A DNA stretch of 40,862 nucleotides from Pirellulales bacterium (GTDB lineage Bacteria; Planctomycetota; Planctomycetia; Pirellulales; Thermoguttaceae). The stretch lies in assembly GCA_016931995.1 (NCBI GenBank), contig JAFGDS010000107.1, positions 1 through 40,862 on the forward strand, in the 5' to 3' direction. The position numbers and the translations under genes are program-made. Position 1 is the stretch's first letter; the number at the start of each line of letters is the position of its first letter. Under the pieces are notes generated by a model. It searched no databases. It worked only from the letters and a program-made list of their open reading frames with translations, and was not told the DNA's origin. Positions 9,250 to 40,266 of the stretch are shown here, one piece after another.

Positions 9250-9315
9250 GTGCCACTGGCTCCGCCAGTGTGCCCTTGACGCCCGGAGACCGCGCACTGG
9301 CGAAGCCAGTGGCAC
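9250..9315. repeat. Convergent CACTGGC/GCCAGTG hairpin repeat pair
   Basis: Two inverted copies of the commonest repeat in this window: a forward unit at 9250-9270 (core CACTGGCTCCGCCAGTG) and a reverse unit at 9295-9315 (core CACTGGCGAAGCCAGTG). Each unit is itself a hairpin with seven-base arms CACTGGC and GCCAGTG, and the two units can also pair with each other. The pair sits in the 337-base gap between the pump and outer-membrane channel genes, where nothing else is recognised. Confidence 0.95.
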
Positions 9316-15871: not shown

Positions 15872-16350
15872 GGCCGCGGCGACCCTCCAGAAGTGGGGAA
15901 TTGGTGAAACCGCCCAGTATATCGGACAAACACCGGGCAGGGCAATTGGAATGGAGGAAACCCGGCGAGTTGACATTGTGTCCAAACGGCCCATCGGGCA
16001 GAATAGCCGACCGGAAGGACCCGATTCCGGTTGTTCCGCGTACAACCCAGGTACGTGAAAAGGAGTTCCCAAGCCCGATCGCGCCCCCGCAGCCGGCCGC
16101 TTTTTTTGGGACGGACACCCTCCGGCACGACGCCGGACGAGCCGTCGGCCCTGGCGCGATTCGCGGAGAGTTCGGCGACAGGAGGTTGCCCGTTCGCCTC
16201 ATCCGCCTCCCTTCCGGCTGCGCGTGCCACGTTGCGGCGCGCGTCGCATGGAGAGCGACCCGAAGGCCGTGCCCCTTGTTGCCGCCGGTTCGGCGCGATC
16301 CGGTCGTCCGGTCGCTCCGCGCCTTGGCCCCTGGCATAAGGAGGGATCCG
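15872..16350. other. Divergent intergenic region
   Basis: 479 bases between the ROK kinase (minus) and the thioredoxin-protease gene (plus), expected to hold both promoters. A perfect TTGACA occurs at 15970-15975 on the plus strand, but no matching -10 lies 16-18 bases downstream. The plus-strand frame of the protease gene stays open through the whole region, but its translation has no domain and the strong ribosome site is at the downstream ATG. No repeat family is visible. Confidence 0.5.
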
Positions 16351-17880
16351 ATGGCATGGTTGTCGATCGCGGTGCTCGCGCTTGCGGCGCCGTCGAGTTC
16401 GGACGTCGTTCTTCTCGATTTCTACGCCGACTGGTGCGGTCCGTGTCGGCAGATGACCTCGACGATCGACGAGCTTTCGGGCCGGGGATATCCGGTCCGT
16501 CGCGTGAACGTGGACCGCGAGCGGGCGCTGGCCGAACGCTTCAAGGCAAACCAATTGCCGTGCTTCGTGATGGTGGTGGACGGGCGCGAGGTCGATCGCG
16601 TGGTTGGGCTGACCAGCTACGGGCGGCTGGCTGGGATGTTCCACAAGGCGTCGCTGGCGGCGGCCCCGCCTCCGGCGGCCCCGCCTCCGGCGGCCCCGCC
16701 TCCGGCGGCGCCGCCGACGGACATGCCGCGTCGGATGCCCTCGGCCGGACTCCCCGCCGTCGCGAGCGGTCCCGTGTTCGTTACCGCGCCTCCGGACGCC
16801 GCCGCGCCGTCGGCTAGCATCGACGCGGTGCCCGTCGCGGCGACCAACAACGCCGACGTTGCCGACGCCGACGGCTGGACGGGCAGGCCCCGGTCGGCCC
16901 AGGAACCCGTCTTGGGCGCCCAACTGATCGCCGCCTCGGTCCGGCTGCGGATCGAGGACCCCGACGGGCATTCCTGCGGTTCCGGAACCATCATCGACAC
17001 GCGCCGCGGCTGGGCGCTCATCCTCACCTGCGGACACATCTTCCGCGACTCGAAGGGCCGGGGACGGATCGAAGTGGACCTGTTCGATTCCGGACAAGCC
17101 CAGCGGGTAATTGGTGAGCTTGTATCCTACGATCTCGGCCGCGACGTCGGCCTCGTGCGGATCCGCGCCCCCAAGCCCGTGGCCGTGGCGCGCGTCGCGC
17201 CGCCAGGCTACGACGCCCGCGTGGACGATCCCGTGATCAGCGTGGGCTGCGACAACGGCGCCGATCCGACGATCCTGCACACCCGCGTCCGCTCGAAGGA
17301 CCGGTTCCTCGGCCCGCCGAATCTCCAAACCGACGGGCTGCCGGTCGAGGGACGCAGCGGCGGAGGGCTCTTCGCGGCCGACGGCCGCGTGGTGGGCGTG
17401 TGCAACATGGCCGATCCGAAGGAAAACCAGGGTCTCTTCGCCGCGCTGCCGTCGATCCACGCGGAGCTGGACCGGGCTGGGCTTGGGTACGTATACGAGC
17501 AGCCGGCCGAGAGTCCGCCCGCGGCCGCCCTCGCGGCGGTGAGCCCCCCGGCCATTCCGGAGACCATGCCGCGCTTTGACGAATCCGCCGCTCCGGTCGA
17601 CGGCCCGATGCGCCCCACCTCGGTCCGCTCGACCGAGGAGCCCGCGACCGCCTGGGGAGACCTCAGCCTGGAGGAGCGGGCGGCCTTGCAGGAGATCGCC
17701 CGGAGAAAGACGCGGGACGCCGAGGTAATCTGCATTATCCGGTCGCGATCGAAACCTTCCGCCCCCAGCGAGGTGCTCGTGCTCGACGGGGCCTCGCCCG
17801 GCTTCCTCCGCGGGCTGGAGTCCCTCGCCCAAGGCGACCCGCTCCCACCCGTCGCCGCCGCTCCGCAAGCGGACCGGTAG
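16351..17880 (+). CDS. Thioredoxin-like/trypsin-like protease fusion, exported
   Basis: A 509-residue protein with three parts. A short hydrophobic N-terminus (MAWLSIAVLALAA) leads directly into a thioredoxin-like domain with active site WCGPC (C29, C32) and the FYADWCGPC context. A Pro/Ala-rich linker (about 102-125) is encoded by three exact 15-base repeats at 16661-16705. A trypsin-like serine-protease domain (about 185-370) has the apparent triad H229 (TCGHIF), D265 (GRDVGLVRI) and S336 (GRSGGGLF). A further 120 or so residues contain a disordered and then a short helical segment of unknown function. AAGGAGGGA at 16338-16346 fixes the ATG. An envelope role in disulfide chemistry combined with proteolysis is inferred. 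The substrate is unknown. Confidence 0.87.
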   Translation: MAWLSIAVLALAAPSSSDVVLLDFYADWCGPCRQMTSTIDELSGRGYPVRRVNVDRERALAERFKANQLPCFVMVVDGREVDRVVGLTSYGRLAGMFHKASLAAAPPPAAPPPAAPPPAAPPTDMPRRMPSAGLPAVASGPVFVTAPPDAAAPSASIDAVPVAATNNADVADADGWTGRPRSAQEPVLGAQLIAASVRLRIEDPDGHSCGSGTIIDTRRGWALILTCGHIFRDSKGRGRIEVDLFDSGQAQRVIGELVSYDLGRDVGLVRIRAPKPVAVARVAPPGYDARVDDPVISVGCDNGADPTILHTRVRSKDRFLGPPNLQTDGLPVEGRSGGGLFAADGRVVGVCNMADPKENQGLFAALPSIHAELDRAGLGYVYEQPAESPPAAALAAVSPPAIPETMPRFDESAAPVDGPMRPTSVRSTEEPATAWGDLSLEERAALQEIARRKTRDAEVICIIRSRSKPSAPSEVLVLDGASPGFLRGLESLAQGDPLPPVAAAPQADR

Positions 17881-17889
17881 CCACGCGGC

Positions 17890-17982
17890 GTGCCACTGGC
17901 TCCGCCAGTGCGGATCGAGTGCTACTGGCTCCGGCAGTGCCTTGGGACACCGAGACTTCAGCACTGGCGGAGCCAGTGGCAC
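17890..17982. repeat. Triple CACTGGC hairpin repeat (forward, forward, reverse)
   Basis: Forward units lie at 17890-17911 (CACTGGCTCCGCCAGTG core) and 17919-17940 (CTACTGGCTCCGGCAGTG, a diverged copy), with a reverse unit at 17961-17982. The array begins ten bases after the protease stop codon and ends about 25 bases before the methyltransferase start. A reading frame continues through it into the methyltransferase, giving a spurious N-terminal extension. Confidence 0.95.
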
Positions 17983-18006
17983 ACGCAGCGCTGGCAGGTC
18001 CGTGCC

Positions 18007-19260
18007 GTGATCGACGCCTCCCTGTTGGACGATTACCGGTGGCTCGTGGGAACAACGGGCCAGGCGTGGCTCGCCCGGGCGGCGGACGACGATCGCGAGC
18101 CGGTGGCGCTGGCCGACGCGTTGCGGCGCGATCTCTCGTCCTCTCGCGCCCACCTCGTGCTCGAACAGGTCGCGCTGCGGCGTCGCGGGCGGGCGAAGTA
18201 CGCCGACGCCGCCGCACGGATGCTCTTCACGCGCCGAGGGCTGGAGCAGGCCACCGATCGCTGGGTGGCCGGGTGGAAGGCCCAGCGGTTTCCCGTCGGA
18301 GGTCGCGTGCTCGACCTCTGCTGCGGCGTCGGCGGCGACCTGATCGCGCTGGCCAACCGGGGCGCGGCCGCCGGCTTCGACCGCGATCCCGTCGCCGCCT
18401 TCCTGGCCGCGGCCAACGCGGCCGCGCTGGGCGCGGCATCCGCCCGCGCCGTTATTGCCGACGTGACCCGGCTGCGGCTGGCCAACGATGCCCTTTGGCA
18501 TATCGATCCCGATCGGCGCGCGGGCCGGCGGCGCTCGGTCCGGCCGCTTTGGCACGAGCCGGACGAAACGGCGGTCTCCCGGCTCCTGGCGTCGGCGCCG
18601 CACGGGGCCGTGAAGCTGGCGCCCGCCGCCGACGTGGCCCGGGCCTGGGCGGGCCAAGCCCAACGCGAATGGATCGCCCGCGACCGCCAATGCCGGCAGC
18701 AGGTCGTCTGGTTCGGCCGGTTCGCCGGCGAGCCCGGCACGCATCGCGCCACGGCGATCCGCGCGCCGCGGGCCGGACGGGACGAAGCCGTCCGCACGCT
18801 GATCGGGAAGCCCGGCTTCCCGTCCTCGCGGGTCGATGCGCCGGACCGCTGGGTCTTCGAGCCCGACCCGGCCGTGTCGGCGGCGGGCCTGGTCGGCGCG
18901 TTGGCCGCCCAACACGCGCTTGCCGCGCTGGATCCGCAAGGACTCTATCTGACCGGTCCGCGTCCGGTCCGCGATCTTGCCCTGGCCTGCTTCGAGGTCG
19001 AAGAGGTCCTCCCGTTCGACCGACGGCGGTTGCGGCGGCTGCTGGCCGCCCGCGGGATCGGACGTCTGGAGATCAAGACCCGCGGGCTGGCCCTCGATCC
19101 CCAACGGCTCGCCCGGCAACTCCAGCCGAAAGGCGACGCCTTCGGCGTCGTGTTGCTGATCCGCGGGCCAGGCGGCGTCCTGGCGGTCCTGGCGAGGCGG
19201 ATCGCCGACCCAGCGGATTCCGTTCAGGAGTCGCGCGAGGAAGGTTCCTTTGGGGGGTAA
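18007..19260 (+). CDS. Class I SAM methyltransferase with THUMP-like C-terminus
   Basis: A 417-residue S-adenosylmethionine-dependent methyltransferase-fold protein. Motif I is VLDLCCGVGGD (about 101-111), followed by the GFDRDP acidic loop. The C-terminal segment IGRLEIKTRG...LQPKGDAFGVVLLIR matches the THUMP-like domain found in a family of uncharacterised, probably RNA-directed methyltransferases. The middle region has a conserved-looking EWIARDRQCRQQVVWFG stretch. The target is unknown; RNA is inferred from the THUMP-like domain. The GTG at 18007 is chosen because any earlier start would translate the repeat array. The ribosome site is weak (AGG about nine bases upstream). CsrA follows 209 bases downstream. 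Confidence 0.8.
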   Translation: MIDASLLDDYRWLVGTTGQAWLARAADDDREPVALADALRRDLSSSRAHLVLEQVALRRRGRAKYADAAARMLFTRRGLEQATDRWVAGWKAQRFPVGGRVLDLCCGVGGDLIALANRGAAAGFDRDPVAAFLAAANAAALGAASARAVIADVTRLRLANDALWHIDPDRRAGRRRSVRPLWHEPDETAVSRLLASAPHGAVKLAPAADVARAWAGQAQREWIARDRQCRQQVVWFGRFAGEPGTHRATAIRAPRAGRDEAVRTLIGKPGFPSSRVDAPDRWVFEPDPAVSAAGLVGALAAQHALAALDPQGLYLTGPRPVRDLALACFEVEEVLPFDRRRLRRLLAARGIGRLEIKTRGLALDPQRLARQLQPKGDAFGVVLLIRGPGGVLAVLARRIADPADSVQESREEGSFGG

Positions 19261-19469
19261 GTCGCGCCAGCCGTGGGTGTCCAACGGTTGACAACGCGCC
19301 GGTTCCGAAACCCTCGCTATACGCGAAGTGCGGCGGCGGGCCCACGACGGATAACCCCGCCCGGCAGACTCCACGCAAACGGCACATCTTCCCCTGGCCG
19401 AACGCGCCTACGATTTCGCCGGGTGGCCACTTTCCCGTTTGGACCCAGAATCGGAAAGGAATCCAAGCC

Positions 19470-19697
19470 ATGTTGGTGCTCAGTCGAAAGCCGGGCGAAC
19501 AGATCGTCCTTCCGGATATCGGCATCCGCGTGACCGTGCTGAATATCAGCGGTCGGCGCGTGCGTCTGGGAATTGAAGGCCCGCCCACCACGGCCGTCCA
19601 TCGCGCCGAGGTTTGGCAGCGGATGCAGGAATTCTCGGACCCCGCGCCCCGCAGCGCGGCCGCCCCGCGAACCCGCCATCGCCTTGCCGCTCGCTGA
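19470..19697 (+). CDS. csrA: Carbon storage regulator CsrA
   Basis: A 75-residue post-transcriptional regulator that binds GGA motifs in mRNA leaders as a dimer and usually blocks translation. The match is direct: MLVLSRKPGEQIVL at the start, then VTVLNISGRRVRLGIEGP and VHRAEV, including the RNA-binding arginine of the VHR motif. The C-terminal tail (about 25 residues, Ala/Arg/Pro-rich) is longer than needed for the fold. AAGGA ends nine bases before the ATG, and this GGA could also be an autoregulatory site. Flanked by the methyltransferase and a zinc-ribbon membrane protein on the same strand. No flagellar gene or FliW is nearby. Confidence 0.95.
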   Translation: MLVLSRKPGEQIVLPDIGIRVTVLNISGRRVRLGIEGPPTTAVHRAEVWQRMQEFSDPAPRSAAAPRTRHRLAAR

Positions 19698-19823
19698 CAA
19701 GTCGGCTTGCTCCGTCTTTCTCAAGCGGCCCAATCTTCCCACGCTGCCTACATCCTTGGTCAGCCCGCAGAACCTACGGAATCGCTACAGTCCACCAAGC
19801 CCGTGGCCGATGATGGGAATACC

Positions 19824-22507: not shown

Positions 22508-22638
22508 GTGCCACTGGCTATGCCAGTGCGCGCCGGCAGTCGGCCGTGCGTGGACGCGCCGAACGCCCAATGGCCTCGTGCTCGGCCGGCACACTGGCAG
22601 AGCCCGTGGCACACACGCACTGGCAAAGCCAGTGGCAC
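22508..22638. repeat. Triple CACTGGC hairpin repeat (forward, reverse, reverse)
   Basis: A forward unit lies at 22508-22529 (loop variant CTATG), with reverse units at 22592-22612 (diverged, AGCCCGTGG) and 22617-22638. Together with the hairpin at 22467 and the terminator at 22659, these fill the 382-base gap between glyQS and the secretin-like gene. No gene is seen in the gap. Confidence 0.95.
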
Positions 22639-31291: not shown

Positions 31292-31386
31292 GTGCCACTG
31301 GCTCCGCCGGTGCCATGCGATGCGAGTGCCACTGGCCAGTGCCGTGCGACGCCAAGGCGCACGAGCACTGGCAGAGCCAGTGGCAC
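31292..31386. repeat. Triple CACTGGC hairpin repeat with one deleted unit
   Basis: A forward unit lies at 31292-31314, a short unit at 31326-31343 (CACTGGCCAGTG, the loop lost so that the arms abut) and a reverse unit at 31365-31386. It lies between convergent ribD and the FixJ-like gene. Confidence 0.92.
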
Positions 31387-40201: not shown

Positions 40202-40266
40202 GTGCCACTGGCTCTGCCAGTGCCGCGCGAGGCCCATCATCCACGCACTAGCGGAGCCAGTGGCAC
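40202..40266. repeat. Convergent CACTGGC hairpin repeat pair
   Basis: A forward unit lies at 40202-40223 and a reverse unit at 40245-40266 (CACTAGCGGAGCCAGTG, one arm with a substitution), just after the NarL-type regulator gene. Confidence 0.94.

Follow-up and report, generated by a model that had tools for sequence, protein, structure and literature searches.

A thioredoxin fused to an HtrA-type protease domain in much of a planctomycete class: a possible exported reductase-protease

The window analysed here is a stretch of 40,862 nucleotides from a Pirellulales bacterium (contig JAFGDS010000107.1, assembly GCA_016931995.1), and the gene of interest is located on its forward strand at 16351..17880, with all features of the gene given below lying on the same strand. 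A strong Shine-Dalgarno sequence (AAGGAGGG, 16338..16345) read in the sequence precedes the start ATG at 16351, and the reading frame is open until the stop codon at 17878-17880. Together with Pfam matches and relatives, the sequence identifies the 509 amino acid product as a fusion of a thioredoxin domain and a trypsin-like protease domain. The upstream neighbour is a divergent ROK-family kinase, and downstream lie a THUMP-like methyltransferase (17890-19257) and the CsrA gene (19440-19694); the listed start of the methyltransferase is doubtful because its frame begins inside a REP-like repeat region. An operon logic was considered and rejected, as no partner was fixed across 44 compared loci and no pathway was pointed to. 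The divergent ROK kinase adjoined the gene in seven of these loci and another divergent gene, apparently a methionyl-tRNA synthetase judging by the sequence of its longest member, did so in seven further loci. The remaining recurring neighbour groups were overlapping or antisense frames of those genes, or occurred at six loci or fewer and at variable distance.

Repeats are a separate feature of this genome. A REP-like palindromic element, GCCACTGGCTCCGCCAGTG, often occurs as inverted pairs separated by some tens of bases and had 17 matches in the window when up to 3 mismatches were allowed, compared with 0 in shuffled sequence, examples being the sites at 9252-9313, 17892-17980, 22510-22636, 31294-31384 and 40204-40264. 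In the 5.4 Mb genome, CCACTGGCNNNGCCAGTG had 322 + 337 exact matches against 0 for a reversed control. The REP-like pair directly 3' of the fusion gene was predicted by folding to form a long hairpin (z -6.2), and no RNA family reached its gathering score within 16000-19800.

The protein begins with a hydrophobic stretch of about fourteen residues without K or R (residues 1-14, 16351..16392), a probable export signal judged from the sequence and from the signal-peptide-like N-termini found at the same place in divergent relatives. Predicted starts in the relatives agreed in position, with 44 of 60 located 18-22 residues ahead of the residue aligned to residue 20; a Shine-Dalgarno match of 5-6 bases stood at every one of these 44, such a match being part of the criterion by which the script chose starts. 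By eye, the N-termini of divergent relatives (e.g. L183, L184, L140 and L193) resembled normal signal peptides and ended near the thioredoxin core, which supports export. The N-terminus of the window protein is itself short and without the usual positive charge, a point counted against the reading as an exported reductase-protease developed below, and the same held among the relatives, where 48 of 60 predicted N-termini had neither K nor R within their first nine residues. The preliminary description had called the protein exported; export remains probable on the strength of the divergent relatives, while the uncharged N-termini speak against it.

The thioredoxin domain occupies residues 16-93 (16396..16629), with a Pfam PF00085 match (E 8.8e-14) of 51.8 bits against a gathering cut-off of 23.5. 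The match began at profile position 17 of 103, and an AlphaFold2 model gave a beta-alpha-beta-alpha-beta-beta-alpha topology with its first strand at residues 19-25 (pLDDT 86-93 in the thioredoxin blocks); the usual first strand and helix of the fold are therefore missing. The redox motif WCGPC places its cysteines at C29 and C32 (C29-G-P-C32, 16435..16446) and is preceded by D23, which was Asp in 48 of 57 rows and Glu in 6. We take this combination of WCGPC and preceding Asp to be thioredoxin-like rather than DsbA-like. The domain scored 62.4 bits with the NCBIfam thioredoxin equivalog TIGR01068, below the curated cut-off of 96.8. A Pro/Ala-rich linker (residues 105-184 approximately, 16663..16902) follows, mostly disordered with model pLDDT mostly below 50. 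The WCGPC domain with its residue numbers, the Pro/Ala linker joining two domains and the very short mature N-terminus ahead of the thioredoxin core had all been read from the letters before, and each agrees with the Pfam match and the model.

The HtrA-type trypsin-like protease domain spans approximately residues 185-379 (16903..17487). Within it, Pfam Trypsin_2 (PF13365) matched residues 210-350 with an E value of 3.4e-20 and 73.7 bits against a gathering cut-off of 27.6. The AlphaFold2 model, built on six sequences, had a mean pLDDT of 68, with both domains folded, domain blocks mostly at 73-94, and the linker and parts of the tail below 50. Foldseek and VIA-align comparisons of the protease half were topped by DegP, DegQ and DegS (Z about 25, rmsd 2-3 A over about 190 residues), and in a family profile alignment H229, D265 and S336 fell on the His, Asp and Ser of DegP. 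The trypsin-like domain with an intact triad at these three positions, for which the preliminary description had proposed structure prediction as a check, is thus supported, the numbering being correct and a trypsin fold being present in the model.

The tail, previously described as uncharacterised, gave no Pfam match at E up to 1 when its last 132 residues were run alone. A short module at approximately residues 437-493 (17659..17829), seen in an alignment of 35 rows (A3) and in models as a helix, a beta hairpin and a helix, had the consensus AEVICIVRP..SEVIVLD.ASP.FL. A loose pattern, which missed some true carriers, found the module in 85 of 164 rows and in none of the rows from group f21. 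The module had neither a PDB sequence match nor a Pfam match, and a search of its own genome returned the gene itself as the one strong match and one match at chance level (E 0.2). The model of the module from four sequences had a mean pLDDT of 65, which is too low to support a comparison of folds.

Among the 60 nearest genomes, the window's own included, 59 had a match at E 1e-10 or better, so that the fusion is more than a chance one-off. The match covered the protease in 58 and the thioredoxin only in one (G013), and a single genome (G011) had no match. A profile of the protease plus tail matched 220 of 297 genomes of the class at E 1e-15. The matches listed include seven genomes of the window's own taxonomic family and a further 74 from its order, with E values reaching 1.3e-64; the misses listed (20 of 77) include G219, of the window's taxonomic family, and none marked as of the same order. 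Group f22 matched strongly (about 1e-52 to 1e-93), group f21 mostly at about 1e-46 to 1e-56, and group f23 either failed to match or did so only at about 1e-16 to 1e-21, the f23 proteins examined being short and without thioredoxin. An in-frame thioredoxin was present at all 20 loci taken from 19 f22 genomes and one f25 genome, as well as in the best copy of each of 11 f21 genomes. A single match was listed for most of the genomes belonging to the order and to f22, and the named members include Candidatus Anammoximicrobium (L011). Of 244 genomes sampled from the phylum, 26 matched at 1e-22, with only one of these outside the class (G511, E 1.1e-23, thioredoxin-less). Judged by these sequence matches the family is centred on one planctomycete class, and the phyletic distribution proposed earlier as a check thus came to relatives in 58 of the 60 nearest genomes and 220 of the 297 genomes of the class.

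The protein family was taken as the 140 rows, including the window's own, that carried GRxGGG and scored above 140 bits. Of its 139 complete proteins, 133 had a readable in-frame thioredoxin; among the other six, two started at a contig edge (L103, L128), one had the thioredoxin in a neighbouring frame (L116) and three had none (L132, L137, L215). Within the 133, all retained the cis-Pro, 131 retained C29 and 131 retained C32, and the residue following the cis-Pro was Cys in 59 and Thr in 57. This retention of the CxxC (131/133) and cis-Pro (133/133) bears against the idea that the thioredoxin fold is only a substrate-binding or oligomerising adaptor that replaces a PDZ domain, its redox chemistry being incidental. 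We regard that explanation as improbable, even though the domain has dispensed with the usual first strand and helix and two family members (L145, L241) retain it without the CxxC, as the adaptor explanation would allow.

The protease half retained its triad in nearly all members and carried three conserved cysteines of its own. In the 139 complete proteins, the catalytic H229 of the motif C227-G-H229 (17029..17037) was found in 137, D265 (17143..17145) was Asp in 137 and Glu in 2, and S336 of the active-site motif GRSGGG (residues 334-339, 17350..17367) was found in 138; R335 and G339 were found in all 139, both as a result of the row selection. Other trypsin-like matches in the same genome (L005-L007) had GDSGGP or GNSGGP where the fusion has GRSGGG. 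C227, two residues ahead of the catalytic His, was kept in 137 of the 139, C300 (17248..17250) in 136 and C351 (17401..17403) in 137, a conservation equal to that of the triad. In the profile alignment these cysteines fell on three Asn residues of DegP, in its TNNH, GNPFG and GINTA stretches, respectively. Outside the family, thioredoxin-less relatives had C227 in 2 of the 20 with a letter at that position (L216 was left out as a copy of L164), C300 in 6 of 21 and C351 in 11 of 21. By these counts, C227 is more closely associated with the fusion family than the other two cysteines are. The alignments link all three clearly to the family's active protease, but only suggestively to the thioredoxin.

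Cysteines of this kind would suit a switch in cis, in which the main task of the thioredoxin is to control the protease to which it is fused, by way of thiols near the active site. Protease activity would be altered when a disulfide forms, or another oxidation takes place, at C227, C300 and C351, and the thioredoxin would restore the earlier state. The triad-like conservation of the three cysteines, their placement at three DegP Asn positions and the rarity of C227 in thioredoxin-less relatives outside the family are in keeping with such a switch, as is the absence of both C227 and C300 from the two family members without a catalytic His (L199, L215). Reduction of a disulfide stimulates DegP (PMC4339722), but that disulfide is located in another loop. 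Several observations run counter to the switch: C227 and C300 are kept in L132 and L137, which have no in-frame thioredoxin, and in L241, which has no CxxC; C300 and C351 also occur in the thioredoxin-less relatives outside the family; and another thioredoxin-protease protein, L012, has neither C227 nor C300. The thioredoxin-less GRSGGG paralogs of f21 genomes, nine in number with one (L172) starting at a contig edge, are without C227 and C300 and keep C351 in 8 of 9, and in a quick tree with many weak forks they form one clade and so count as one event. A strict link between the protease cysteines and the fused thioredoxin was rejected as proof, since L132, L137 and L241 retain C227 and C300 although no CxxC partner is present, and since the f21 paralogs amount to one clade. 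A class-wide family of self-regulated proteases, in which the built-in thioredoxin reads or resets the redox state of C227, C300 and C351 beside the catalytic His, is a possibility to which we give rather less than half a chance, as we do for the cis control itself. The f21 paralogs L171-L176, L181 and L182 have reading frames 305-438 aa long, in which Ala occupies the place of C227 and Ile or Val that of C300.

Natural variants indicate that the halves can be uncoupled, since a few family members drop one of them (L132, L137, L145, L241, L215 and L199); this counts, like the lack of a conserved operon partner, against the reading as an exported reductase-protease. L199 has its catalytic His replaced by Ala and its Ser by Cys and has lost C227 and C300, with the CxxC and C-terminal module intact, and by its sequence is a natural pseudoprotease. 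In L215 the thioredoxin is gone, as are the catalytic His, C227 and C300. The protease site is intact in the thioredoxin-less L132 and L137, the latter running to a contig end. L145 has lost the CxxC and C300 and retained C227, L241 has lost the CxxC and kept C227 and C300, and in L142 and L191 only C351 is lost. This occasional separate loss of halves, together with the lack of operon context, could be taken as a sign of two independent functions on one chain without a working coupling. We consider that quite unlikely, given that the same domain order and both active sites recur in the window's taxonomic order, in f22 and in f21.

Compared with the HtrA/Deg proteases (DegP, DegQ, DegS, HhoA), the fusion shares the trypsin-like fold, the order His-Asp-Ser and a probable envelope location, but has GRSGGG instead of GNSGGP/A, has Cys at three DegP Asn positions, and adds an N-terminal thioredoxin and its own C-terminal module. 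No PDZ domain was matched by Pfam at E up to 1, either in the whole protein or in the tail alone, and the Do family model TIGR02037 gave 39.6 bits, far below its curated cut-off of 416.2. The protein is therefore a Trypsin_2 and thioredoxin-domain protein by cut-off and not a member of the HtrA family by the PDZ and TIGR02037 tests. With TrxA/TrxC and exported DsbE/TlpA-type thioredoxin-like proteins it shares WCGPC, the cis-Pro and the PF00085 match, and it differs from them in falling below the TIGR01068 cut-off, in the missing first strand and helix, in a Cys that follows the cis-Pro in 59 of the 133 readable family thioredoxins and in being fused to a protease. The planctomycete protein L012 likewise has a thioredoxin followed by Trypsin_2, its thioredoxin segment being 49% identical to the window's, but its active site is GDSGGP, C227 and C300 are absent and it groups with other proteases in the tree. 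The thioredoxin-trypsin combination may thus, by sequence, have arisen more than once. This protein of another lineage (L012:1905-3632) also has a long C-terminal extension.

MarP of Mycobacterium tuberculosis (Rv3671c) is also trypsin-like and appeared in the VIA list (3k6y, 3k6z), whereas the NCBIfam match of the fusion to it was weak (E 0.064). MarP has a redox-linked disulfide and, to our knowledge, is without a thioredoxin. Its cysteines presumably lie at other positions than C227, C300 and C351, and with this mismatch the MarP disulfide was rejected as homologous. A role in defence was also rejected, since PADLOC gave the protease half just weak RT-Protease_XI matches (E 1.2e-4 and 7.8e-4). 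Among the papers listed by searches of open-access literature, none appeared from its listing to deal with a thioredoxin-trypsin fusion or a planctomycete equivalent.

The reading that we favour, tentatively and at a little short of an even chance, is that of an exported two-enzyme reductase-protease located in the envelope of planctomycetes. Its thioredoxin half would reduce disulfides or mixed disulfides of a client and would probably regain its electrons from a membrane protein of DsbD type, and the HtrA-type serine protease half, on its flexible linker, would cut the same client once opened. The thioredoxin would stand where DegP-like proteases have PDZ domains, as a module that chooses and prepares substrates. 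A single DsbD_TM match and no match to DsbB or VKOR were found in the window's own genome (draft, 99% complete), which favours a reducing role of the thioredoxin. As the triad and the CxxC are kept in nearly all family proteins, selection seems to maintain the two active sites in a single chain throughout the class. The two domains, the conserved catalytic residues of each, the linker and the spread within the class are seen in the data, from which we infer the export of the window member, the reducing direction, the enzyme activity and the shared substrates. The coupling of thiol chemistry and proteolysis raised in the preliminary description appears likelier with the wide conservation of the fusion, CxxC and triad and with a DsbD-type domain unaccompanied by DsbB or VKOR matches; the class-wide spread, the GRSGGG signature, the three protease cysteines and the short conserved C-terminal module go beyond that description. 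Misfolded or oxidised envelope proteins, suggested there as targets, would be hypothetical substrates. Each proposed step has a precedent in trans: the recombinant Deg protease HhoA accepts PsbO as a substrate once thioredoxin has reduced it (PMC3446894), and DegP, stimulated by reduction as mentioned above, is reducible in vitro by human Trx1 (PMC4339722).

The two kinds of enzyme linked in separate studies are here present in one chain across much of a class, mostly as a single gene per genome, and envelope thiol-protease coupling is thereby directly testable with few point mutants. Were the self-regulated family the correct reading, it would be an HtrA-type protease that switches with the redox state of the envelope. 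The envelope biology of planctomycetes is poorly understood, and a widespread candidate envelope protease such as this one would be a good entry point to it.
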